A DNA stretch of 64,000 nucleotides from Plantactinospora sp. BC1 (GTDB taxonomy: Bacteria; Actinomycetota; Actinomycetes; Mycobacteriales; Micromonosporaceae). Below, piece by piece: positions 1,877 through 13,091 of the stretch (its first letter is position 1; each line of letters begins with the position of its first letter). The notes beneath the pieces were generated by a model. It had not been told where the DNA came from. It was given only the letters and a program-made list of their open reading frames with translations, and made no database searches. Location: assembly GCF_003030345.1 (NCBI RefSeq), contig NZ_CP028158.1, forward strand, positions 1,612,001 through 1,676,000, written 5' to 3'. The position numbers were made by a program, and so were the translations under genes.

Positions 1877-2773
1877 CTACGGCCGTTTCGGCGGCGGCCG
1901 GTGGCGGGGCTCGACGATCCGGAACCGTACCGGCTTGCCGGGTGCCGCCTGGGCGACCTGCGGGAGGTCGTCCGGGTGCAGTACCCCGATCACCGGGTAG
2001 CCGCCCATGGTCGGATGGTCGGCCAGGAAGATCACCGGCGAGCCGGCCGACGGTACCTGCACCGCGCCGAGCACCACCCCCTCGCTGCGCAGCTCCCCGC
2101 CGACCCGGCGGGGCAGCGCCGGCCCCTCCAGGCGTACCCCGATCCGGTTGCTGAGGGTGGAGACCCGGTAGCACTCGCTGCCGAGGATGCGTACCGCGTC
2201 GTCGGTGAACCAGTCCGCCCGGGGGCCGAGCAGGACCCGCAGGGTCAGCTCCTCGGCCAGGGTGCCGGTCGGGGCGACGTCGACCGGGCCGGGCGGCCCG
2301 GGTGGCTCGCCCAGCGGCAGCCGGTCCCCGGCGGCCAGCGGCGCGGGGCCGAGCCCGGAGAGCAGGTCGGTCGAGCGGCTGCCGAGGACCGGCGGTACCG
2401 CGATCCCACCGGCGAAGGCGAGATAGCTGCGCAGCCCGCGCCGGGCGGCGCGAACCTCGACCCGGGCTCCGGCCGGCACCGAGACCGGGGCCGACCAGCT
2501 CGCCGGCCGGCCGTCCACGGTGACCGGCGCCCAGGCTCCGGTCACCGCGACGGTGCCGGCCTGGCAGAACCGCACCGAGACACCCGTGACGGTCGTCTCG
2601 ATCGTCGCCGCCCCGGGCGGGTTGCCGACCAGCCGGTTCGCCAGCAGGTGCGCCGGCAGGTCGAGGGCGCCGGAACGCGGTACCCCGAGATGTGCGTGTC
2701 CGGGCCGGCCGAGGTCCTGCACGGTGCTGAGCGCGCCGGGCCGGAGGATCTCGACGAAACGTCCGCCGGTCAT
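1877..2773 (-). CDS. pxpC: 5-oxoprolinase subunit C (biotin-dependent carboxyltransferase family)
   Basis: 298 residues. The N-terminus EILRPGALSTVQDLGRPG and the segments VPRSGALD, SYLAFAGGI and ILGSECYRVS are characteristic of the PxpC/KipA (AHS2) family; the family C-terminus, HPTMGGYPVIGVL, is present. PxpA, PxpB and PxpC together hydrolyse 5-oxo-L-proline to L-glutamate at the expense of ATP in the cytoplasm. The ATG overlaps the pxpB stop by four bases (ATGA), so the two subunits are translationally coupled. The partner pxpA lies at the other end of the same leftward block, with a transporter in between, which ties uptake to hydrolysis. Length and motifs look intact. Confidence 0.93.
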   Translation of the reverse strand: MTGGRFVEILRPGALSTVQDLGRPGHAHLGVPRSGALDLPAHLLANRLVGNPPGAATIETTVTGVSVRFCQAGTVAVTGAWAPVTVDGRPASWSAPVSVPAGARVEVRAARRGLRSYLAFAGGIAVPPVLGSRSTDLLSGLGPAPLAAGDRLPLGEPPGPPGPVDVAPTGTLAEELTLRVLLGPRADWFTDDAVRILGSECYRVSTLSNRIGVRLEGPALPRRVGGELRSEGVVLGAVQVPSAGSPVIFLADHPTMGGYPVIGVLHPDDLPQVAQAAPGKPVRFRIVEPRHRPPPKRP

Positions 2774-3546
2774 GCCGGCGGCTCGCCGCGCCCGACACCG
2801 TGCGGCGCCCGCGCACCGCCCCGGCCGGTCCGCCCGCCGCGCCCGCCTGCGTCGGCGTCGGCGTCGGCGTCGACGGCCCCGTCGGCGTCGATGGCTCCGT
2901 CGGCGTCGACGGGCCGGAACCGGACCCGGGTGCCCGGGGTGAGCAGCGCGACCGGGTCCCGGTCCGGGTCGAAGAGGACCAGGTCGGTGCTGCCGAGCAG
3001 TTGCCAGCCGCCGGGCGAGTCCCGGGGATAGATCCCGGCGTAGCCGCCGGCCAGCGCGACCGAGCCGGCCGGCACCCGGGTCCGGGGCACCGAGCGCCGA
3101 GGCAGGTGGTAACGCTCCGGCAGGCCGGTCAGGTAACCGAAGCCGGGGGCGAAGCCGCAGAACGCGACCCGGTATTCCGGTGCGCTGTGGATCCGCCCCA
3201 CCTCCTGCTCGGCGACTCCCCAGTGCCGGGCCACCTCGGCCAGGTCGGCGCCGTCGTAGCGGACCGGTATCTCGACCAGCGGCCCGTCCGGCGGGCGGGC
3301 CGTGCCCGGCCGCCAGCCGGCGAGCCGCCGGGTCAGCTCCGCCGGATCGTCCAGCCCGTCGACGAGCACGGTGAGTTCACCGGGTACGACGTCCTGCACG
3401 CCGCCGAGTTCGCCCCGGTCCCGCCAGCGGTGCAGTCGTGCCACCAGCGCGGCGGTCTGCGCCGGCTCGGTCAGCTCGACCAGGAGCGCGCGCAGCCCCA
3501 CCGGAATGATCCGCACCGTCGCATCCGCCCCGTCGTACCGGCTCAC
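2770..3546 (-). CDS. pxpB: 5-oxoprolinase subunit B
   Basis: 258 residues of the PxpB/KipI (AHS1) family. Diagnostic segments are FCGFAPGFGYLTGLPE (about residues 130-145), VPAGSVALAGGYAGIYP and DSPGGWQLLGST. It forms the PxpBC module of ATP-dependent 5-oxoprolinase. Its ATG overlaps the livF-like gene by four bases and its stop overlaps pxpC, so transporter and enzyme are co-translated. The last ~45 residues are an unusual low-complexity tail, first Asp/Ala repeats encoded by a GTCGGCGTC-type repeat (about 2850-2920) and then Gly/Arg. Family members normally end near the preceding VRFRPV, so the tail looks like a local repeat expansion. Confidence 0.93.
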   Translation of the reverse strand: MSRYDGADATVRIIPVGLRALLVELTEPAQTAALVARLHRWRDRGELGGVQDVVPGELTVLVDGLDDPAELTRRLAGWRPGTARPPDGPLVEIPVRYDGADLAEVARHWGVAEQEVGRIHSAPEYRVAFCGFAPGFGYLTGLPERYHLPRRSVPRTRVPAGSVALAGGYAGIYPRDSPGGWQLLGSTDLVLFDPDRDPVALLTPGTRVRFRPVDADGAIDADGAVDADADADAGGRGGRTGRGGARAPHGVGRGEPPA

Positions 3547-4244
3547 AGCCCGAGGTACGAGCGGCGTACCTCGTCGGAGGCGGCCAGCTCGTCGGCCGGG
3601 CCGGCCATCACCACCTCGCCGGTCTGCAACACGTACGCCCGGTCGGCCAGCTCCAGCGCGGCCCGCAGGTTCTGCTCCACCAGCAGCATGGTGGTGCCGG
3701 CGCGGCGGATCTCGGCCAGCACCTCGAAGATCATTTTGGTGAACTTCGGTGAGATGCCGAGCGAGGGCTCGTCCAGCATCAGCAGCTTCGGCCGGCTCAT
3801 CAGCGCCCGGCCGAGCGCCACCATCTGCTGCTCGCCGCCGGAGAGCGTGCCGGCGCGCTGCCCGGCCCGCTCGGCGAGGACCGGGAAGAGGTCGTAGACC
3901 CGGGCCAGGTCCGCCTCCCGCTCCGTCGCGGTGCGGTGGTAGCCGCCGAGCAGCAGGTTCTGCAGCACCGTCTGGTGGCCGAAGAGCCGCCGTCCCTCCG
4001 GCACCAGCACCGCGCCCCGGCGGGCGATCCGGTACGCCGGCAGCCCGCTCACGTCCTCGTCGAGGAAGGTCACGCTGCCGCGTACCGGGCGGTGCAGTCC
4101 GGAGACCGCCGCCAGCAGGGTGCTCTTGCCGGCCCCGTTCGCGCCGACCAGCGCCACCAGTTCGCCGGCCTCGACCCGCAGGTCGACGCCGCGCAGCGCG
4201 ACGACCCCGGCGTAGTCCACGTGCAGATCCCGTACGGTCAGCAT
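3543..4244 (-). CDS. Branched-chain-amino-acid-type ABC importer, ATPase LivF, probably for 5-oxoproline
   Basis: 233 residues, a complete LivF-type ATPase: Walker A GANGAGKST (about 34-42), signature LSGGEQQ (about 135), Walker B LLMLDEP and the switch His region LLVEQN. It energises the LivH/LivM permease at the membrane. The start abuts the livG-like stop with no gap and its end overlaps pxpB by four bases. That coupling to 5-oxoprolinase subunits is the main reason to propose pyroglutamate, rather than Leu/Ile/Val, as cargo; the family itself transports many amino acids, amides and aromatic acids. Confidence 0.93.
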   Translation of the reverse strand: MLTVRDLHVDYAGVVALRGVDLRVEAGELVALVGANGAGKSTLLAAVSGLHRPVRGSVTFLDEDVSGLPAYRIARRGAVLVPEGRRLFGHQTVLQNLLLGGYHRTATEREADLARVYDLFPVLAERAGQRAGTLSGGEQQMVALGRALMSRPKLLMLDEPSLGISPKFTKMIFEVLAEIRRAGTTMLLVEQNLRAALELADRAYVLQTGEVVMAGPADELAASDEVRRSYLGL

Positions 4245-4967
4245 CTACAGCGCCTTCCCCAGGTACGCCTCGACCACCGTCGGGTCGTGCGCGACCTGCT
4301 CCGGGGTACCCTCGCTGATCTTCTGCCCGTAGTGCAGCACCACCACCCGATGGCAGAGCGGCATGATGACCTCCATTACGTGTTCCACCATCAGGATGGT
4401 GACGCCGCCCCGGTTGATGCCGCGGACGATCTCGACCGCCTCGCGCGCCTCGGTCGGGGTCAGTCCGGAGAGCACCTCGTCGAGGAGGAGCAGCTTCGGC
4501 TCGGTGGCCAGCGCCCGCCCCATCTCCAGCCGCTTCTTCCAGGCGGCGGTGAGCGACGCGGCCGGCGAGTCGAGCACCGGACCGAGCCCGGTCAGCTCGG
4601 CGACCTCGCCGGCCCGGCGCCGGGCGTCCCGCAGCCGGGGATGCCGGGCGAAGGCGGCCGTGGTGAGGTTGTCCAGCACGCTCATCGAGCCGAACACCCG
4701 CATCAGCTGGAAGGTCCGCCCCACCCCGGCCCGGGCGGCGCGGTGCGGCGGCCAGCCGGTGACGTCCCGGCCGTCGAACTCCAACCGGCCCGAGGTGGGC
4801 CGCTGGGCGCCGGCCACCATCGAGAAGAGCGTGCTCTTGCCGGCGCCGTTCGGCCCGATCAGCCCGACGATCGCGCCCTGCGCCACCTCGAAGCTGACGT
4901 CGCGGTTGGCCCAGAGGCCGCCGAACCGGCAGGAGAGGTTGTCGATCCTCAGCAGCGTTCCGGTCAT
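4245..4967 (-). CDS. Liv-type ABC importer, ATPase LivG
   Basis: 240 residues with Walker A GPNGAGKST near residue 37, Walker B LLLLDEV and the LivG-typical C-terminus TILMVEHVMEVIMPLCHRVVVL. The signature loop is weak: AAWKKRLEMGRAL stands where LSxGQQ(K/R)LE is usual, which occurs in some Liv-type ATPases. It pairs with the LivF-like subunit to drive the importer. There is no spacer between its stop codon and the livF start, and 19 bases separate it from livM, consistent with one leftward operon. Confidence 0.92.
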   Translation of the reverse strand: MTGTLLRIDNLSCRFGGLWANRDVSFEVAQGAIVGLIGPNGAGKSTLFSMVAGAQRPTSGRLEFDGRDVTGWPPHRAARAGVGRTFQLMRVFGSMSVLDNLTTAAFARHPRLRDARRRAGEVAELTGLGPVLDSPAASLTAAWKKRLEMGRALATEPKLLLLDEVLSGLTPTEAREAVEIVRGINRGGVTILMVEHVMEVIMPLCHRVVVLHYGQKISEGTPEQVAHDPTVVEAYLGKAL

Positions 4968-4986
4968 GGCGCCTCCTCGCGCGCGG

Positions 4987-6072
4987 TCATGCCTTCACCT
5001 CAGCAGATCCGGCCGGCTCCGCACCGGCTTTCCCGCCAGGGGTACGGCGCAGCCGCCGGCCGACCGGCGCCCAGAGCCGCTGCCCGATGGCGAGCAGGCC
5101 GCCCGGCTCGGTGATCGAGACGAGCACGATCAGCGCGCCGTAGAGCAGCAGGTCGATCGAGCGGCCGCTGCCGGAGAACTCCTGCCGGGTGACGTCCTGG
5201 ACGAAGACCAGTACCCAGGCGCCGAGCAGCGGCCCCCAGAACCGGCCGACCCCGCCGAGCACCGCCATCAGGGTGAACGACACCGACAGGTCCAGGCCGA
5301 GCCCGGAGGGCGGGTCGACGAAGAGGACGTACATCACGTAGTAGCCGCCGGCCAGCGCGGTGATCGCGCCGGAGAGCGCGGCGGCGGCGAGCTTGTAGCG
5401 GTGTACGTCGATTCCGACCGCCGCCGCGGCCTCCTGGTCGTCCCGGATCGCCCGGACGTAGTTGCCGGCCCGGCCGCGCAGGAAGAGCCAGACCGCCAGG
5501 GCGGCGAGGCAGAAGAAGCCGAGCGCCACGTAGTAGTACGGTCGCTTGTCCAGCAGCGAGAACTGGAGGTTGGCCAGCGAGGACTCGACGACCGGCAACT
5601 CCCAGCCGTTCGCCTGGCCGAGCCCGGGCAGGTTGGTGACCAGGATGAAGACGATCTCGGCGACCGCGATGGTGGCGATGGAGTAGTAGTGGTGCCGCAG
5701 CCGGAAGCAGGGCCAGCCGACGGCGGCGGCGAGCAGCGCGGCCAGCGGCAGCGAGAGCCCGATCGCCAGCCACGGCGACCAGCCCTGCCGGACCAGCAGC
5801 GCGGTGGTGTAGGCGCCGGTGCCGAAATAGAGCGCGTGCCCGAAGGAGATCTGCCCGGTGTAGCCGCCGAGCAGGTTCCAACCGGTCGCCGCGATCCCGA
5901 AGGTCAACGCCAGGATGCCGATGTTGTGTGCCGCCGAGTCCGCGAAGACCAGCGGGTACGCGGCCAGCACCGCCAGGATCAGCACGGCGGTACCCCAGGC
6001 CGGCAGCCGCCGGGCCGGTGAGGTGCCGAGCCGGGTCGGCGAGGGCCGGCGCAGTACGGTCGGGGCGCTCAT
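4987..6072 (-). CDS. Liv-type ABC importer, permease LivM
   Basis: 361 residues, strongly hydrophobic with about nine or ten membrane segments. It carries the family GGYTGQISFGHALYFGTGAY stretch (about residues 70-89) and the EAAAAVGIDVHRYKLAAAALSG coupling region (about 213-234) that contacts the ATPase. GAGGGGGGACG precedes the ATG as a strong ribosome site. It forms the substrate channel with the LivH-like protein. The first ~25 residues and the last ~30 are charged and cytoplasmic in character. Confidence 0.93.
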   Translation of the reverse strand: MSAPTVLRRPSPTRLGTSPARRLPAWGTAVLILAVLAAYPLVFADSAAHNIGILALTFGIAATGWNLLGGYTGQISFGHALYFGTGAYTTALLVRQGWSPWLAIGLSLPLAALLAAAVGWPCFRLRHHYYSIATIAVAEIVFILVTNLPGLGQANGWELPVVESSLANLQFSLLDKRPYYYVALGFFCLAALAVWLFLRGRAGNYVRAIRDDQEAAAAVGIDVHRYKLAAAALSGAITALAGGYYVMYVLFVDPPSGLGLDLSVSFTLMAVLGGVGRFWGPLLGAWVLVFVQDVTRQEFSGSGRSIDLLLYGALIVLVSITEPGGLLAIGQRLWAPVGRRLRRTPGGKAGAEPAGSAEVKA

Positions 6073-6094
6073 CGTCCCCCCTCGATCGGATTGG

Positions 6095-6955
6095 TCATCT
6101 GGTCCCCAGCAGTCCCTGCGGCCGTACCAGCACGACCACCAGATAGAGGGCGAGTGCGGCGGCGAGGGTGTAGCTCGGGGCGTAGAGCCCGACGACGCCC
6201 TGGGCGACTCCGACGAGCAGTCCGGCCAGGGCCGCCCCGGTGATGCTGCCGAAGCCGCCGAACGCGACCACCACGAAGGCCATCAGCACGAAACTCACCC
6301 CGGCGGTCGGTGAGGCGGAGTAGGAGTTCATCAGCAGCGCTCCGGCGACGCCGGTGGCCAGGCCGGCGATCACCCAGCAGAGGGCGTACATCCTGCGCGG
6401 GTCGATGCCCATCAGCGAGGCCGCCGCCGGGTCCTCCCCGGCGGCCCGTACGGCGCCGCCGAGCCGGGTCCGATTCATGAAGTACGCGACCGCGCCGGTG
6501 GCGAGCAGCGCGCCGACGGCCATGATGACCTGTGGCCCGCCGATCACCACCGGGCCGATCTCCCAGCGCAGCCCGGCGGCCCAGGGCCGGGGTACGGTCC
6601 GGGTGTTCGGGGTCCAGAGGAACTGGGCCAGTCCGCGCAGGAAGACCTGTAGTCCGAAGGTGACGATCACCTGGGCCAGCGGGGACTTGCCGAGCACCCG
6701 GCCGACCGCGCCGAAGTACATCAGCGCGCCGGTGAGCGCGATCGAGACCCCGGCGAGCGGGATGGAGAGCAGCGGGTCGAGGCCGAGCAGCGACCAGGCG
6801 AAGAACGAGGTGTACATGCCGAGCATGACCATCTCGCCGTGCGCGAAGTTGATCACGTCCATCACGCCGTAGATGAGGGTCAGGCCGACCGCGACCAGCG
6901 CGAAGACCGCGCCGATCAGCAGCCCGTTGACCACGGACTGGAGCAGGTCGGTCAT
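6095..6955 (-). CDS. Liv-type ABC importer, permease LivH
   Basis: 286 residues with about eight membrane segments. Family marks are LTLIYGVMDVINFAHGEMVM near the N-terminus and the EDPAAASLMGIDPRRMYALCWVIAG coupling helix in the middle. It is the second half of the permease and lies 22 bases upstream of livM on the same strand. A purine-rich GAGGGGG eight bases before the ATG fixes the start. Full length, no irregularity seen. Confidence 0.93.
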   Translation of the reverse strand: MTDLLQSVVNGLLIGAVFALVAVGLTLIYGVMDVINFAHGEMVMLGMYTSFFAWSLLGLDPLLSIPLAGVSIALTGALMYFGAVGRVLGKSPLAQVIVTFGLQVFLRGLAQFLWTPNTRTVPRPWAAGLRWEIGPVVIGGPQVIMAVGALLATGAVAYFMNRTRLGGAVRAAGEDPAAASLMGIDPRRMYALCWVIAGLATGVAGALLMNSYSASPTAGVSFVLMAFVVVAFGGFGSITGAALAGLLVGVAQGVVGLYAPSYTLAAALALYLVVVLVRPQGLLGTR

Positions 6956-6992
6956 GGCGCCGACCCCCTCGGCCGCCCGCCGGTCCGCCGGC

Positions 6993-8258
6993 TCACCGCT
7001 GTGCCTGGTTCATCGGCCAGATCGGCTGGACCGAGGAGAGGTCGGCCGGGAAGACCACCCGGTACTTCCCCTCGATCATCTGCTCGACCACCCCGGCGGC
7101 ACCGGTGTTCTGGCCCTTGTCGTCGAACGTGATCCCGGTCCACGGCATGATCGTCTTCTCGCCGGGGACGTTCAGCCCGCGCAGCGCGTCGCGGATCTTC
7201 GCCGGCTCGACCGACCTGGCGGTGTCGATCGCTTGCGCCAGCGTCAGTACGGCGGTGAAGGCCCGCGCGGAGTTCTCGGTCATCGGGGCGCCGTACCGCT
7301 GCTGGAACAGGTCCGCCACGGTCTTGGCCGCCGGCCGCTTCTCGGCGATCTCGCCGGACCAGGCCGCCCGGGTGGAGGCGCCGTTGGCGAGCGCGCCGAG
7401 CCCGGTGGCGAAGGCCGGGTCGGCGAATCCGGTGCCGTAGGCGAGCAGCGCCGGCGGGTAGTAGTCCAACTGGTCGAGCGTCTTCATCAGCTTGATCGCC
7501 GCGTCGGTGTAGGCGAGCACGAAGAGCACGTCCGGGTTCCTGCTCCGCACCTGCGCCACCTGGGAGCCGAGGTCGGCGGCGGTGGGGTCGAAGCCGACGT
7601 TGACGGTGACCGGCAGCCCGGCCTCGGCGGCGACCTTCTCGGTCACCCCGGCGCCGTCGTTGCCGAACTGGTCGTTGCTGTGGAAGACGCCGACCGAACG
7701 GATCTGGGCGCCGGCCGCCTGCCGGGCCTTCAGGTAGTCGAACATCGACCGGGCGAAGGTCTCGTCGGTCGGCCCGGTCCGGAAGAACCACTTCAGGCCC
7801 CGCTCGGTGAGCGCCACCGACGAGGACGCCTCGTTGACGAAGGGTACGCCGAGCCGCTCGGCCCGCTGGCTGGCGGTCAGCGTCACCCCGGACTGGTACG
7901 AGCCGATCACCGCGGCGACCTTCTCGCCGGTGACCAGCCGGTCGACCTCACCGGCACCGACCTCGGGCTTGCCCTGGGTGTCGCCGGTGATCAGCTTCAC
8001 CGGTGCGCCGCCCAGCCCGGGCAGTCCCTTGCCGGGCCCGAGCGGCAGGTCCAGCCCGGGATGGTCGTTGTTGACGACGTCCACGGCGAGTTCGGCACCG
8101 TGCAGTACGTCGGTGCCCTGGGTGGCGTTGGGGCCGCTGAGCGGCCAGAGACCGGCGAGCTTGACCTCGTCGGTGGCACCGGCGCCGTCGGATCCGCCAC
8201 AGCCGGCGAGCGCGGCGGCGAGGACGAGAGCGGCCGCGCCGCTGGTGATCCTGCGCAT
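6993..8258 (-). CDS. Substrate-binding lipoprotein of the Liv-type importer
   Basis: 421 residues, type I periplasmic-binding fold (LivJ/LivK, Peripla_BP_6). A signal peptide ends in the lipobox LAGC (about residue 19), so the protein should be lipid-anchored outside the membrane. The body begins EVKLAGLWPLSGPNATQG, the usual ligand-lobe start, and contains VAAVIGSYQSGVTL and FEVIGAP-like hinge regions. An upstream in-frame ATG at 8318 was rejected because it would bury the signal peptide; GAAAGG precedes the chosen ATG. Position between the secreted peptidase-like gene and the permeases, and coupling to pxpBC, suggest that it captures 5-oxoproline or pyroglutamyl compounds. Confidence 0.9.
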   Translation of the reverse strand: MRRITSGAAALVLAAALAGCGGSDGAGATDEVKLAGLWPLSGPNATQGTDVLHGAELAVDVVNNDHPGLDLPLGPGKGLPGLGGAPVKLITGDTQGKPEVGAGEVDRLVTGEKVAAVIGSYQSGVTLTASQRAERLGVPFVNEASSSVALTERGLKWFFRTGPTDETFARSMFDYLKARQAAGAQIRSVGVFHSNDQFGNDGAGVTEKVAAEAGLPVTVNVGFDPTAADLGSQVAQVRSRNPDVLFVLAYTDAAIKLMKTLDQLDYYPPALLAYGTGFADPAFATGLGALANGASTRAAWSGEIAEKRPAAKTVADLFQQRYGAPMTENSARAFTAVLTLAQAIDTARSVEPAKIRDALRGLNVPGEKTIMPWTGITFDDKGQNTGAAGVVEQMIEGKYRVVFPADLSSVQPIWPMNQAQR

Positions 8259-8342
8259 GGTCGAGCCTTTCTGGAGACGATGGCGAAGGCCCGGCGCCGT
8301 CCCGCTCGGGGCGCGCAACGGGGTCTTCGGGAGGCAGGTGTG

Positions 8343-8382
8343 CGGCCGGGCCCGGGGGTTGCCGGCACCCCGGGCCCGGCCG
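8343..8382 (-). terminator. Very strong hairpin between the peptidase-like gene and the binding-protein gene
   Basis: Perfect 15-bp stem, CGGCCGGGCCCGGGG at 8343-8357 and CCCCGGGCCCGGCCG at 8368-8382, loop of 10. It begins five bases after the peptidase-like stop. It may terminate or attenuate transcription, or protect an upstream mRNA end. Confidence 0.75.
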
Positions 8383-8387
8383 ACGAC

Positions 8388-9734
8388 TCAGGAGACGGCC
8401 GCGCCCGCGGCCTTCACCAGGGCGACGGTCTGTTCGATGGTCTGCGCGCGGTCGGACGCGAACGGCGGGTCGATGATGTCCAGCGGGTTCTGCGGGTAGA
8501 CGAGCGAGGAGATGTGCAGGTGTCCGCCGGGGACGTCGGTGGCGCCGAGGGCGAGCCGGAGCCGGTTCGACCGGTACATGCTCTCGTTGGAGAGGTAGTT
8601 CCCGCCGCCGCCGGCCTGGGCCTGGGCGCCCGGGGAGGGACCGTTGTCGTGGCAGGAGACCTTGGTCGGGTCCGGCCGGGTGTTGCCGGTCCACTCGCAG
8701 ATCCGCGGGTTGAGCGCCGTCGGCCAGGGCGTCGTGCCGGCGTCGATCATCGGCTGGTACGGCAGGGTCGTCTCGATGAACTCCGGGTTGCTGGCCGGCT
8801 GCGGCCAGTTCGTCACCTGCGGGACGAGTTCCGGCGTGCCCTCGTTGTTGTTGTCCGGGCTGCCGCCGCGCCAGGCGCCGGCCCACTGCTCGATGGCCAT
8901 CCGGGCCCGGCCGCCCTGGCTGATCGTCATGATCAGGTCGGCGCGTTCCCGGCTGTTCCGGGTCAGGTGCGGTCCGAAGGCGTCCTCGACGTAGCCGAGG
9001 TCGAAGCCGCTCCAGGTGACCGGCAGCGAGACCGCCTGGATCTGCACCAGCCGGTCGCCGACCCGGTACTCCTGCCCGTCCAGTTGCAGCGCGGACGCGC
9101 CGGACGGGTTGGAGCGGCGGATCTCCCCGTTGAGCTGGTACGGGTCGAAGCCGCTGACCAGCACCCGGGTCACCGAACGGCTGGTGGAGAAGTCAGTGGA
9201 GGAGATGCCCCGGGAGGCGTACTCGAAGGTCTTCAGCAGGGCGGCCCGGGCGGTGTCGGTGAGCCGGAACCGGGGTGTCCACTGTCGAAGGTCACGGGTG
9301 GCGGTGAGCCGCGACCAGTAGAGCGGGCGGTCGTCGTACCGCTCGATGCTGCCCATCCAGCGCTTGCCCTGGGCCCGTTCGACGGCGGTACGCCACAGTT
9401 CGGCGCCACGGGACCGGAGCAGCTTGTCGGCCTGGCCGACCGACCGTGCCCCGCACAGCTCGGCGGTGAACCGGGTGACGAACGGGGTGAAGCCGCCGAC
9501 CTCGATCAGCGTGCTCGGCACCTGCACCCCGCCCGGCTGGGCCGGGGTGTCGATCCGGGTCTCCTCGTACGTCGTCGGGAGGGTGCGGTCGTAGCACTCC
9601 CCCGCCGGTCCGGCCGCCCCGGCCGGCTGCGCCACGGCGGTGCCCGGCATCACCAGCAGGGCGGCACCGATGCTGGTGGCGGTGAGCAGCTTCAGCCGGC
9701 CGCGTACACTCTCAGTCAACTTCTGCACATCCAA
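8388..9734 (-). CDS. Secreted pyroglutamyl-peptidase-I-like protein with Ser in place of the catalytic Cys
   Basis: About 448 residues. After a Sec signal peptide (hydrophobic core then AVA-QP) comes ~150 residues of unrecognised sequence, then a C15 pyroglutamyl-peptidase-like domain. VLVSGFDPYQ and SNPSG match the family GFDPFGG and NPS; IMTISQGGRARMAIEQWA matches the catalytic-Glu segment (Glu ~282); GGHLHIS matches the GFIHIP catalytic-His segment. At the nucleophile, NYLSNESMY replaces the family's FVCNHLFYG, so Ser382 (codon TCC) stands for Cys. Classical Pcp is cytoplasmic and ~210 residues; this form is exported and twice as long. It could be an altered hydrolase or a pyroglutamyl-binding protein. 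Start chosen at TTG 9734, 12 bases after GAGGAAAGG; GTG 9728 is the alternative. Confidence 0.75.
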   Translation of the reverse strand: MDVQKLTESVRGRLKLLTATSIGAALLVMPGTAVAQPAGAAGPAGECYDRTLPTTYEETRIDTPAQPGGVQVPSTLIEVGGFTPFVTRFTAELCGARSVGQADKLLRSRGAELWRTAVERAQGKRWMGSIERYDDRPLYWSRLTATRDLRQWTPRFRLTDTARAALLKTFEYASRGISSTDFSTSRSVTRVLVSGFDPYQLNGEIRRSNPSGASALQLDGQEYRVGDRLVQIQAVSLPVTWSGFDLGYVEDAFGPHLTRNSRERADLIMTISQGGRARMAIEQWAGAWRGGSPDNNNEGTPELVPQVTNWPQPASNPEFIETTLPYQPMIDAGTTPWPTALNPRICEWTGNTRPDPTKVSCHDNGPSPGAQAQAGGGGNYLSNESMYRSNRLRLALGATDVPGGHLHISSLVYPQNPLDIIDPPFASDRAQTIEQTVALVKAAGAAVS

Positions 9735-9871
9735 GGTGATCTTCGACCTTTCCTCGACAGCGCGCCGCTTCCGCGTCTTTGGCCAACCAACCGGAAGGCG
9801 GAGCCGGCGCGTCACTGGGGTTGGGAGCGGCCGCCCGAGGCATCGGGTGGCCGCCGTTGAGGTGCGGGAGC

Positions 9872-9914
9872 CCGGTGACCGTCGGTCGGGTGGCAGCCCG
9901 GCCACGGTCACCGG
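9872..9914 (-). terminator. Hairpin downstream of pxpA
   Basis: 11-bp inverted repeat, CCGGTGACCGT at 9872-9882 and ACGGTCACCGG at 9904-9914, with an inner CGGG/CCCG stem. It lies about 30 bases past the pxpA stop and would separate pxpA from the peptidase-like gene. The 211-base gap otherwise holds nothing that I recognise. Confidence 0.65.
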
Positions 9915-9945
9915 TCCGGCGGTGGTGCCGGTGGTTTCCGGAGGA

Positions 9946-10707
9946 TCAGACGAACGAGGCGAGGCTGACGCCCGCCTCCTGTAGCGCGGTGTGCACCTGG
10001 CGGGCCAGCTGCACGGCGCCCGGGGTGTCGCCGTGCACGCAGATCGATCGGGCGCGTACCGAGACCGGGGCCCCGTCGACGGCGGCCACCTGCCCGGTGG
10101 TGGCCATCTTCACGCAGCGCCGGGCGACCGCGTCCGGATCGGTGACCAGCGCACCGGGACTGCCGCGTTTCGCCAGGCTGCCGTCGGACCGGTAGCCGCG
10201 GTCGGCGAACGCCTCCCGGACGGCCTTCAGTCCCACCTCGGCGGCCTGGCGAAGCAGTTGTGAACCGGGCAGGCCGAGGATCGGCAGGCTCGGGTCGTAC
10301 GCGGAGACGGCCGTGACCACGGCGGCGGCCTGCGCCTGGTCGGTCACGGTGCGGTTGTAGAGCGCGCCGTGCGGCTTGACGTACCGGACCCGGCCGCCCT
10401 CGCTGCGGGCGATCCCGTCGAGCGCGGCGAGTTGGTAGAGCACGTCGTCGGAGAGCCGGTCGGGTTCCATGTCGATGGCCCGGCGACCGAAGCCGGCCAG
10501 GTCGCGGTAGCCGACGTGGGCGCCGATGGAGACGTCCCGGCTGATCGCCTCGGCGCAGACCCGGCGCATGATCGTCGGATCGCCACCGTGGAAGCCGCAG
10601 GCGACGTTCGCGCTGGTCACGACGGAGAGCAGTGCCATGTCGTCGCCCAGCTCCCAGACGCCGAAGCCCTCGCCGAGGTCACTGTTGAGATCGAGGATCA
10701 CCGACAT
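9946..10707 (-). CDS. pxpA: 5-oxoprolinase subunit A (LamB/YcsF family)
   Basis: 253 residues, full family length. Diagnostic stretches are LDLNSDLGEGFG at the N-terminus (about 5-16), NVACGFHGGDP (about 34-44), GAHVGYRDLAGFGRR, VRYVKPHGALYN (about 107-118) and SICVHGDTPGAV near the C-terminus. PxpA is the third component needed with PxpBC to open 5-oxoproline to glutamate. It is the first gene of the leftward block and faces the GntR regulator across 130 bases. It is separated from the rest of the block by a hairpin, so it may be expressed more strongly than the downstream genes. Confidence 0.93.
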   Translation of the reverse strand: MSVILDLNSDLGEGFGVWELGDDMALLSVVTSANVACGFHGGDPTIMRRVCAEAISRDVSIGAHVGYRDLAGFGRRAIDMEPDRLSDDVLYQLAALDGIARSEGGRVRYVKPHGALYNRTVTDQAQAAAVVTAVSAYDPSLPILGLPGSQLLRQAAEVGLKAVREAFADRGYRSDGSLAKRGSPGALVTDPDAVARRCVKMATTGQVAAVDGAPVSVRARSICVHGDTPGAVQLARQVHTALQEAGVSLASFV

Positions 10708-10756
10708 CGCACCTCCTGCGGGACGTGGTGTACGTCGTGAGTTCAGGTTGGCAGAC

Positions 10757-10787
10757 TGTTGAACAATCCGTCAATGGTCATGTTGAC
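10757..10787. promoter_or_regulatory. Candidate operator in the pxpA/gntR divergent region
   Basis: The AT-richer 130-base gap holds the perfect palindrome TGTT-G-AACA (10757-10765) and a second inverted repeat, GTCAA (10770-10774) with TTGAC (10783-10787). Short palindromes in a divergent regulator gap are the usual GntR/FCD binding layout. Assignment to this regulator is inference. Confidence 0.45.
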
Positions 10788-10837
10788 TTGTAACTTCGTC
10801 GTAGCATGGACCTTCTCTCGATTGTGGGCCCGACGGT

Positions 10838-11563
10838 ATGAAGGACAATGACCGCGTGACGTGGCTGGCGAAGCTGCAGGACGACCGCTCGTTGATCACC
10901 CGGGCGAGCACCGCGCAGCGGGTGGCGGAGATACTGCGGGCGCGGATCACCGAGGGAGCCCTGCTACCGGGCACCCGGCTCTCCGAGGAGATGATCGGGG
11001 CGGCGCTCGGGGTCTCCCGCAACACCCTGCGGGAGTCGTTCCGGCTGCTGATGCACGAGCGGCTCGTCGTGCACGAACTCAACCGGGGGGTCTTCGTCCG
11101 GGTGCTCGACGTGCAGGACGTGGTGGACATCTACCGGGTCCGCCGGGTGCTGGAGTGTGCGGCCGTCAGCAACGCCCGCAACAGCCCCGCCGAGGCGATG
11201 GACGCGATCGAGGCCGCGCTGGTGGAGGGCGAACAGGCGGCGGCGCAGCAGCGGTGGTTCGACGTCGGCACCGCCAACATGCAGTTCCACCAGGCGATCG
11301 CCGGCCTGGCCGGCAGCCCCCGGATCGAGGAGATCATGCGGCAGGCGCTGGCCGAGATCCGGCTGGCGTTCCACGTGATGGCCGCGCCGCAGACCTTCCA
11401 CCAGCCCTATCTGGACCGGCACCGGGAGCTGCTGGAGCTGATCCGGGGCGGTGAGGTGGAACGGGCGCACGCGGTACTCGACGACTACCTGCGGACCGCG
11501 GAGCGGCAACTCGTCGACGCGTACGTCGACGGGGTGCCGGAGAGCGTGGCCGCACGCCGCTGA
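10838..11563 (+). CDS. GntR-family regulator, FadR/FCD subfamily, probably of the 5-oxoproline genes
   Basis: 241 residues. The N-terminal winged helix-turn-helix reads AEILRARITEGALLPGTRLSEE followed by LGVSRNTLRESFRLL (about residues 30-72). The C-terminal FCD all-helical ligand domain has VYxxR-type IYRVRRVLECAA and the His-bearing segments ANMQFHQAIAG and LDRHRELLELI, which in this family hold a metal and a carboxylate ligand. Transcribed divergently from pxpA, so the expected job is derepression when an acid such as 5-oxoproline binds. Start is ATG 10838; GTG 10856, with AAGGAC ahead of it, is an alternative that would trim six residues. Confidence 0.88.
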   Translation: MKDNDRVTWLAKLQDDRSLITRASTAQRVAEILRARITEGALLPGTRLSEEMIGAALGVSRNTLRESFRLLMHERLVVHELNRGVFVRVLDVQDVVDIYRVRRVLECAAVSNARNSPAEAMDAIEAALVEGEQAAAQQRWFDVGTANMQFHQAIAGLAGSPRIEEIMRQALAEIRLAFHVMAAPQTFHQPYLDRHRELLELIRGGEVERAHAVLDDYLRTAERQLVDAYVDGVPESVAARR

Positions 11564-11591: not shown

Positions 11592-13091
11592 TCAGACGAC
11601 GGTGTGCAGGGCGTACACCCCGTTGTCGGTGCCGACTCCGGCCGCGCCGCCGAGGGCGGACCAGGCGCTGCCGTTCCAGGCGGCGACGTGGTTCACCGCC
11701 ACCCCGCCGGCCCGGACGAAGAAGCCACCGGCGACGAGTCGTCCGCCCTGCACGGCCAGCGCGAGCACGATGTCCTCGGTGCCACCGCCCAGCGCGGCCC
11801 ACCGGGACCCGTCCCACCGGGCGACGTAGTTCGCCGCCGCGCCGCCCGCCTGGGTGAAGGTGCCGCCGACGACCAGCTCCGCGCCGAAGACGGTCAGCGC
11901 CCGCCCCTCGGCGTTGAGCCCGGCACCGAGGGCGACCCAGGCGCTGCCGGTCCACTCGGCCACGTAGTTCGCGGCGGTGCCGCCGGCCTGGGTGAACCCG
12001 CCCGTGGCGACCAGCGCGCCGTCCTGCACGGCCAGCGCCAGCACGTCGCCGTTGAAGCCGGTGCCGAGGGTCGACCACGCACCGCCGCTCCACCGGGCGA
12101 TTCCGTTCGCCGCCGTGCCGCCGGCCTGGCTGAAGCCGCCGCCGACGATCAGCGCGCCGTCGTGCACGGCCAGGTCCCAGACCGAGGGTACGTCCACACC
12201 GGCGCCACCGGGCCCGGCCAGTGCCCGCCATTCGGCGCCGTCCCACCGGGCGATGTGGTTGACGGTGACCCCGCCGGCCCGGAGGAACTGCCCGCCGACG
12301 ATCAGGTCCCCGTCGAAGACGGTCAGCGCGTCGACGAAGTCGAGCGAGTTGGTCATCACTCCGGTGCCGGAGGAGCCGGTCAACGCCGCCCAGCCGGTGC
12401 CGTCCCAGCGGGCGATGCCGTTCACCCGTACCCCACCGGCGGTGAGGAAGCTGCCGCCGGCGATCAGGTCGCCCTCGTAGACGACCAGTGCGGTGACCGA
12501 ACCGTCCGGTCCGGCGCCCGATCCGCCGCCCGGGCGTGACCAGGCGGAGCCGTTCCAGGTGGCGAGGTGGTCGACGGCGGCGCCACCGGCCCGGGTGAAG
12601 GTGCCGCCGGCGTAGAGGCCGGGAGCGGCGGCCGCCCGGGTGTCGGTGGCCGTCCAGCCGAAGCCGGAGGTGCGCCGGAGCGCGTCGAGGTCCCGGGTCG
12701 AGGCGTGCAGCACCCTTCCGGCGGCGTCCCGGACCCACAGCCGGAGGGCGCCGGCCGCCTCGGCGGGCAGCGGCAGCGCGACCAGGTTCGCCCCGGTGTC
12801 GAGCCGCCGGCCGGCGACCAGCGGAGTGTCCCGCCCGGCGTCGTGCAGGGAGACGGTCAACGCCGCGCTCGGGTGGCCCGGCCAGCGGACGGCGAGTTGC
12901 GGGGTCTCGACCTCGCCGACGGCGGGCAGCAGCGTCGCGTACAGCGTGTCACCGGTGGCGGCGGAGCTGGGTGGTGCCGACTCCTCGGCGGCGGAGACCG
13001 GCTGGTGCGGCGCGAGGCTCCAGGCGCAGACCGCCGCCAGTGCGATCACGGAGAGTCCCCGCCGTAGGGTGGATGTGCCGAATCCGGACAT
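11592..13091 (-). CDS. Secreted protein with seven GG-x-F-x-x-AGG repeats, likely beta-propeller
   Basis: 499 residues. A signal peptide (hydrophobic core about 12-28, PVSAAEE cleavage region) is followed by a ~110-residue beta-rich domain and then seven repeats of about 45-55 residues. Each repeat reads roughly L-I/V-x-G-G-x-F-x-x-A-G-G-x-x-x-N-x-I/V-A-x-W-(D/N)-G-x-x-W, for example LIVGGQFLRAGG and VARWDGSRWAALGGG. Similar repeats occur in Rax2/cortical-marker-type and other bacterial extracellular proteins. Seven units suggest a seven-bladed propeller; that is inference. No catalytic residues or anchor signal are visible. It is convergent with the GntR gene with a 28-base gap. Confidence 0.8.
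   Translation of the reverse strand: MSGFGTSTLRRGLSVIALAAVCAWSLAPHQPVSAAEESAPPSSAATGDTLYATLLPAVGEVETPQLAVRWPGHPSAALTVSLHDAGRDTPLVAGRRLDTGANLVALPLPAEAAGALRLWVRDAAGRVLHASTRDLDALRRTSGFGWTATDTRAAAAPGLYAGGTFTRAGGAAVDHLATWNGSAWSRPGGGSGAGPDGSVTALVVYEGDLIAGGSFLTAGGVRVNGIARWDGTGWAALTGSSGTGVMTNSLDFVDALTVFDGDLIVGGQFLRAGGVTVNHIARWDGAEWRALAGPGGAGVDVPSVWDLAVHDGALIVGGGFSQAGGTAANGIARWSGGAWSTLGTGFNGDVLALAVQDGALVATGGFTQAGGTAANYVAEWTGSAWVALGAGLNAEGRALTVFGAELVVGGTFTQAGGAAANYVARWDGSRWAALGGGTEDIVLALAVQGGRLVAGGFFVRAGGVAVNHVAAWNGSAWSALGGAAGVGTDNGVYALHTVV

Follow-up and report, generated by a model that had tools for sequence, protein, structure and literature searches.

The window, by which we mean the whole 64,000-nucleotide stretch that was analyzed from the genome of the soil actinomycete Plantactinospora sp. 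BC1 (contig NZ_CP028158.1, positions 1,612,001 to 1,676,000), contains a locus at 1877–11563 that is summarized in Table 1. The first-pass annotation had placed the 5-oxoprolinase subunits PxpABC, a full Liv-type ABC importer, a secreted protein resembling pyroglutamyl peptidases (MEROPS family C15) and a GntR regulator in one divergent locus, and all of these are present. The overlaps claimed for livF-pxpB-pxpC are also real, with GTGA at livF/pxpB and ATGA at pxpB/pxpC. Family profiles find PxpA (LamB/YcsF), PxpB (CT_C_D) and PxpC (CT_A_B) encoded as separate subunits, as expected of PxpABC, and pxpA (PF03746) is a single-copy gene in this 8.33-Mb single-contig genome. By Pfam the importer has the full HAAT/Liv complement of a Peripla_BP_6 substrate-binding protein (SBP), two BPD_transp_2 permeases and two ATPases. 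For the C15-like gene (9911) and the SBP gene (8318) the listed open reading frames probably start too far upstream. Judged from its genes and from the comparisons below, the locus very probably serves the uptake and use of 5-oxoproline (pyroglutamate), which is glutamate in ring-closed form.

Table 1. Features of the locus in window coordinates
Feature	Position	Strand	Basis and remarks
gntR/FCD regulator, likely PxpR	10838..11563	+	Pfam GntR + FCD; divergent from pxpA; relatives adjoin like sites in other loci
PxpR-type operator GGATTGTTCAACAGTCT	10753..10769	-	15/17 to C. glutamicum operator (PMC13274462)
pxpA, 5-oxoprolinase subunit A	9946..10707	-	PF03746 334 bits; NF003814 360.5 bits (cut-off 226)
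Secreted C15-like gene, Glu-Ser-His replacing Glu-Cys-His	8388..~9734	-	start TTG 9734 or GTG 9728, uncertain
GC-rich hairpin, C15-like/SBP intergenic	8259..8387	-	folding; possible partial terminator or stabilizer
SBP, Peripla_BP_6 lipoprotein	6993..8258	-	Pfam; lipobox LAGC; closest solved relative PDB 8wch_A, E = 1.1e-83
livH-type permease	6095..6955	-	PF02653
livM-type permease	4987..6072	-	PF02653
livG-type ATPase	4245..4967	-	PF00005 + PF12399
livF-type ATPase	3543..4244	-	PF00005; best NCBIfam models LivF/UrtE, under their equivalog cut-offs
pxpB	2770..3546	-	PF02682; TIGR00370 153.6 bits (cut-off 145.55)
pxpC	1877..2773	-	PF02626 (CT_A_B) 295.3 bits (cut-off 25); TIGR00724 274.6 bits (cut-off 230.2)

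PMC13274462 describes a divergent GntR repressor of Corynebacterium glutamicum, PxpR, which has agattgttcaacaatct as its operator and 5-oxoproline as a ligand (KD = 726 nM). In the window, GGATTGTTCAACAGTCT occupies bases 46–62 before pxpA. An operator like AGATTGTTCAACAATCT is thereby found between divergent gntR and pxp genes, the arrangement that marks a PxpR regulon. Shuffled sequences lead us to expect 0.02 operator matches per window at three mismatches or fewer. When the whole BC1 genome was searched with GGATTGTTCAACARTCT, allowing up to two mismatches, the sole match was the pxpA promoter site. The same search gave matches in 14 of 20 genomes, and the reversed control pattern had one match in BC1 and two in all 20. 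The GntR/FCD protein is likely PxpR, an assignment made from its domains, the position of its gene and the site. Genes for C15-like proteins in other genomes (G and L numbers are our handles for genomes and loci) can have such sites too. In G020 a PxpR-type site lies ~80 bases before the start of the C15-like gene, and pxpABC is on another contig with a site of its own; in G083 and G150 the C15-like gene is divergent from a PxpR-like gene, again with a site. As a separate observation, the C. glutamicum operator recurs without mismatch at 1501–1517 of L139 (G012), immediately ahead of a gene resembling proA by eye; proA encodes gamma-glutamyl phosphate reductase, and 5-oxoproline can arise from gamma-glutamyl phosphate.

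The arrangement is well conserved in the genus. The C15-like gene is present in six of seven Plantactinospora genomes, and the order pxpA–C15-like–SBP–livHMGF–pxpBC, whose conservation the first-pass annotation had proposed as a check, is kept in six of the seven; from gntR to pxpC the order is identical in BC1 and five others. Two of the genus genomes share the whole island with P. mayteni and P. alkalitolerans. The seventh genome, G204, has gntR divergent from pxpA-pxpB-pxpC and no C15-like, SBP or liv gene alongside, so that C15-like–SBP–livHMGF is seen as a unit placed between pxpA and pxpB; insertion and loss of this six-gene block are indistinguishable. Within the block, a strong fold follows the stop codon of the C15-like gene (Table 1) in all six genus loci folded, although the sequences differ. 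Compared with 100 base shuffles the hairpin of the window is not exceptional (z = -1.5, 8 of 100 as low), whereas the other five have z = -2.2 to -5.6 with none of 100 as low. Because this GC-rich hairpin separates the C15-like gene from that of the SBP, a single continuous transcript is likely, not certain. In G203 an insert lies between livM and livH (L089, ~2500–3880); by eye it is TnpB-like, with a zinc ribbon (CxxC...CxxC).

The same gene set occurs in another family of the class. With the SBP as query, 394 genomes of the class gave 15 matches at E ≤ 1e-60, BC1 included. The best of the others is in G261, whose SBP is 71–72% identical to that of the window; its C15-like and GntR proteins are 57% and 67% identical to their counterparts. 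Locus L249 of this genome has all ten genes in a different order, i.e. pxpB-pxpA, then SBP-livHMGF-pxpC, with the C15-like gene and gntR on the opposite strand. In its 20 kb, just three places come within five mismatches of the C. glutamicum operator, at 4863 (five mismatches), before pxpBA, at 8876 (three), before the C15-like gene, and at 9824 (three), between gntR and the SBP gene. This rearrangement, with a site for each unit, is the strongest single argument tying the importer and the C15-like protein to the use of 5-oxoproline. The independence of pxp genes and transporter that would have spoken against the earlier annotation is not what we observe for this clade of SBPs, as they are still linked in G261. 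We viewed the neighborhoods of 7 of 10 further matches in the order and 8 of 14 in the class, and G261 provided the only one linked to pxp. The 14 stretches around SBP relatives at 31–41% identity (seven from each set; two, L074 and L075, being short contigs or pieces of <8 kb) contain no pxp gene.

We then consider the nature of the C15-like protein, for which residues are numbered on 8388–9623 (minus strand). Alone it scores 17.2 bits with the Pfam C15 model (cut-off 22.7; E = 0.0054), and no NCBIfam model matched it. However, Pfam C15 is matched at E ≤ 0.01 by 57 of the 81 family members, and in the PDB the family profile finds 14 sequences at E ≤ 10 (best E = 0.034), each of them a pyrrolidone carboxyl or pyroglutamyl peptidase. 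Alignment by hhalign with four canonical actinomycete pyrrolidone carboxyl peptidases (PCPs) covers 181 columns, with a probability of 91.9 and E = 7e-7. These matches indicate kinship with C15 over the whole domain. The segment GFDP..NPSG is kept, matching the canonical N-terminal motif GFEPFGG..NPSW, and the family has an extra conserved N-terminal region with a DDRPLYW motif. A search of the seven genus genomes for canonical C15 enzymes gave no match at E ≤ 0.001.

The alignment, for which we assumed the triad residues of the Pyrococcus furiosus PCP, places the Cys of YVCN on Ser345 (YLSN), Glu75 on Glu245 and His162 on His370. A first register, with S, V, A or N at the Cys place, was dropped, since the PDB profile match and hhalign both give YLSN/YVCN with an invariant Ser. 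Ser345, Glu245 and His370 are each found in 81/81 of the aligned family; L061, which is outside that set, has Pro at the Ser place. According to a review (PMC12445089), C15 is the sole family of clan CF and its triad consists of Glu, Cys and His. The family has Ser at the Cys place throughout in place of that triad, and the protein is not filed as C15 because the nucleophilic Cys is replaced. For the same reason peptidase activity is not transferable by homology, and the earlier reading of the secreted protein as one that releases pyroglutamate is not supported as written. Nevertheless it may well work like the C15 enzymes. Asn346, Glu347, Arg351, Arg356 and His368 are also invariant, and His368, His370 and Glu347 could form a metal site.

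The exchange of Cys for Ser might mean that the protein is a pseudoenzyme, binding pyroglutamyl peptides or 5-oxoproline outside the cell for capture or sensing, with the pathway otherwise unchanged. The defining Cys has been lost, and the family profile scores P. furiosus PCP entries at 16.2 bits (the four best-scoring ones listed read Ser at the aligned place), above 1iof at 13.9 bits; we take the Ser-bearing entries to be Cys-to-Ser mutants. Yet retention of Ser, Glu and His in 81/81 goes beyond the needs of a binding protein, and pseudoenzymes often let their triad residues drift. We consider this explanation somewhat unlikely. That the protein is a hydrolase using the Ser has about even chances.

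The protein is predicted to be exported. Its N-terminus is signal-like by sequence, and a simple hydrophobicity rule classes 77 of 80 relatives likewise; the exceptions are L182 (which has a short upstream open frame), L218 and L223. Cys10 and Cys57 occur together in 71/81 sequences, and Cys309 and Cys324 in 55/81; such pairing is that expected for disulfides outside the cell, which these probably are. L218 and L223 have C15-like genes beside gntR divergent from pxpABC, with Ser kept and no recognizable signal peptide, and are possibly cytoplasmic variants.

The C15-like gene is far less widespread than pxpA, being present in 15 of 200 genomes of the order (BC1 included) compared with 173 for pxpA. 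A scan of named genomes with the C15-like profile gave at least 596 stretches with at least 516 relatives, of which the best 80 loci were kept. In 31 of these 80, pxpA, pxpB or pxpC lies within 10 kb. Since there is one pxpA per genome of several megabases, chance would produce well under one such linkage in 80. The linked loci come from 13 genera as counted from titles, with 12 belonging to or grouping with Lentzea, and span Actinomycetota and Bacillota, including Fictibacillus and a Pseudogracilibacillus bin. When linkage is mapped as a label on a tree of 82 sequences, it needs nine changes (eight of them forced by starred branches), against a mean of 26.3 on shuffling. Linkage therefore tracks kinship, yet has switched repeatedly; the tree cannot tell gain from loss. 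The C15-like protein very likely belongs to the 5-oxoproline pathway. Two near-identical C15-like genes of Actinoplanes sp. TFC3 (L168 and L198) lie ~22 kb apart in opposite orientation on one contig, as a duplication or an assembly artefact.

Membership of the pathway would also be compatible with an active hydrolase of different specificity, acting on another lactam, an amide, or a gamma-glutamyl or cell-wall peptide whose product feeds 5-oxoproline. New invariant positions adjoin the motifs (N346, E347, R351, R356 and H368), and both the DDRPLYW region and a fusion to DUF2891 in G261 point to a specialized role. Furthermore, no Streptomyces or Amycolatopsis locus of the best 80 is linked to pxp within 10 kb. 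Set against these is the retention of the GFDP..NPSG segment of canonical C15, and this alternative seems to us unlikely. The fusion protein (L249, 6399–8828, minus strand) looks exported, and its C15-like domain offers a hint to the function of DUF2891.

Transporters of several types are found in these loci. Three kinds were sought at the 31 pxp-linked loci; ten have a PxpT-like NRAMP gene, one a TRAP DctM gene and two, both Plantactinospora, a Liv system, and two kinds were never found together. Streptoalloteichus and Pseudokineococcus have the order C15-like–PxpT–pxpA–pxpB–pxpC, in the former also with a divergent gntR. In L201 a PxpT-like gene directly follows the C15-like gene, with no pxp gene within 10 kb. 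No NRAMP match was found in BC1, G201 or G205, and in G200, G202, G203 and G204 the NRAMP genes (206–359 bits, compared with 64–81 bits for the PxpT-like proteins at C15-like loci) are on other contigs or far from pxp. For these reasons the Liv importer appears to take the role of PxpT in Plantactinospora. In the Fictibacillus loci L175, L177, L178 and L181 a further gene family, fam14, adjoins PxpT and pxpBC; its L175 member matches Pfam D-Glu_cyclase.

The SBP has ~22% identity to Escherichia coli LivJ. The alignment places Ser, Ala and Ser at LivJ Ser79, Ala100 and Thr102, which we take to be the carboxylate side of the ligand pocket, and Asp121 and Tyr202 are kept. At LivJ Glu226, presumably the partner of the ligand ammonium group, the SBP has Tyr or Thr, according to how the two are aligned. 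This hints, weakly, at a pocket for a carboxylate ligand that has no free alpha-amino group, such as 5-oxoproline. The importer might instead have a different cargo (branched-chain amino acids, glutamate or some other acid) and owe its place in the operon to chance or to shared regulation. Liv-type families are named after branched-chain amino acids, and the SBP relatives at 31–41% identity are not linked to pxp. However, the importer is nested within the pxp operon in six genomes and linked again in G261 with its own PxpR-like site, the Glu226 position is not acidic while Ser79/Thr102 are Ser/Ser, and of the 16 Peripla_BP_6 matches in the genome 15 pass the Pfam cut-off, this SBP and 14 others. 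A different cargo is therefore improbable. The bare gntR and pxpABC of G204 might suggest that the cluster does no more than repair internal damage, dealing with 5-oxoproline that forms spontaneously, and that its neighbors are unrelated; this is very improbable given that the exported protein, and in part also importers, recur with pxp genes across two phyla.

We thus read the locus, with a probability of roughly 75%, as a PxpR-controlled operon for scavenging 5-oxoproline. Many proteins and peptides carry pyroglutamate as an N-terminal cap, and it arises spontaneously from glutamine. On the model of C. glutamicum, the GntR repressor would occupy the operator before pxpA until released by cytoplasmic 5-oxoproline. 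The exported C15-like protein would act outside the cell on pyroglutamyl material, most likely removing N-terminal pyroglutamate by means of a triad in which Ser345 would be the nucleophile, His370 the base and Glu245 the third member. The lipoprotein SBP, whose ligand we infer to be 5-oxoproline, would capture it, LivHMGF would import it and PxpABC would open it to glutamate using ATP. The single route with 5-oxoproline as cargo proposed in the first-pass annotation thus gains much support from the PxpR-type operator, from G261 and from PxpT or TRAP genes elsewhere; its peptidase step is not supported as written. More tentatively, and with slightly less than even chances, the C15-like protein could found a serine-nucleophile branch of extracellular pyroglutamyl peptidases that feeds importers in Actinomycetota and Bacillota, the importer being of ABC type in Plantactinospora.

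A number of observations weigh against this scavenging operon. Cys-to-Ser exchanges usually kill cysteine peptidases. The evidence from the pocket is weak because Glu226 is also lost in SBP relatives unlinked to pxp and in the seven paralogues compared. Of the 80 C15-like loci, 49 have no pxp gene within 10 kb, every Actinoplanes locus of the set included, and 18 of the 31 that do show no NRAMP, TRAP or Liv gene within reach. In G200, G202, G203 and G204 another importer may be at work, given their NRAMP genes. PxpC scores 206.9 bits with the equivalog model NF045499, below its cut-off of 500, the hairpin may limit read-through past the C15-like gene, and the G261 site ahead of pxpB is weak, with five mismatches. 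Lastly, we scanned 600 nt upstream of the C15-like genes using a weight matrix made from ten pxp-promoter sites with an 18-bit threshold, dropping L183 for its short upstream sequence and counting 11 low-GC loci apart. A strong PxpR-type site was found for only 7 of 68 high-GC genes, compared with 22 of 2086 control windows, true pxp promoters among them. At 18 bits no site is seen in any Lentzea, Amycolatopsis, Streptomyces or Actinoplanes locus. The low-GC loci (3 of 11, with 11 of 339 control windows) are left uninterpreted because the matrix assumes a high-GC background.

The closest known system is pxpR divergent from pxpTABC in C. glutamicum. It shares with Plantactinospora the divergent GntR regulator, a near-identical operator, pxpABC and a linked transporter, but the transporter is the NRAMP/APC-type PxpT rather than an ABC importer, and no secreted peptidase-like gene is reported for the cluster in the accessible part of PMC13274462. 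That paper says that the bacterial use of external pyroglutamate has been little examined, and cites the TRAP receptors DctP6 and DctP7 of Bordetella pertussis, where a binding protein similarly captures 5-oxoproline near a 5-oxoprolinase gene; these differ in being TRAP, not ABC, and in the eukaryotic-type oxoprolinase. Pyroglutamyl peptidase I (MEROPS C15, clan CF; PMC12445089) has its motifs in the same order as the C15-like protein, with the triad Glu and His in common. The C15-like protein differs in having Ser for the nucleophilic Cys, in its export, in its extra N-terminal region and in its probable disulfides. E. coli LivJ/LivK-LivHMGF has the same subunit make-up, but its acidic Glu226 is not kept here.

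A pxp operon with a linked transporter and PxpR is therefore known, while the type of transporter and the secreted serine-bearing C15-like partner appear to be new; we met neither a Liv-type 5-oxoproline importer nor a secreted serine C15 protein in the literature, as surveyed mainly at the level of listings. The locus would constitute a complete, testable route for pyroglutamate, and suggests that unrelated transporters can fill the same place. Conservation of the Ser in 81/81 sequences offers a clear-cut way to ask whether a cysteine-peptidase fold is able to change its nucleophile on moving to the oxidizing exterior. Beyond the regulator, a gene for a DUF5122-type beta-propeller protein (11592–13091, minus strand) adjoins gntR, and is kept beside the island in the other five genus loci compared.

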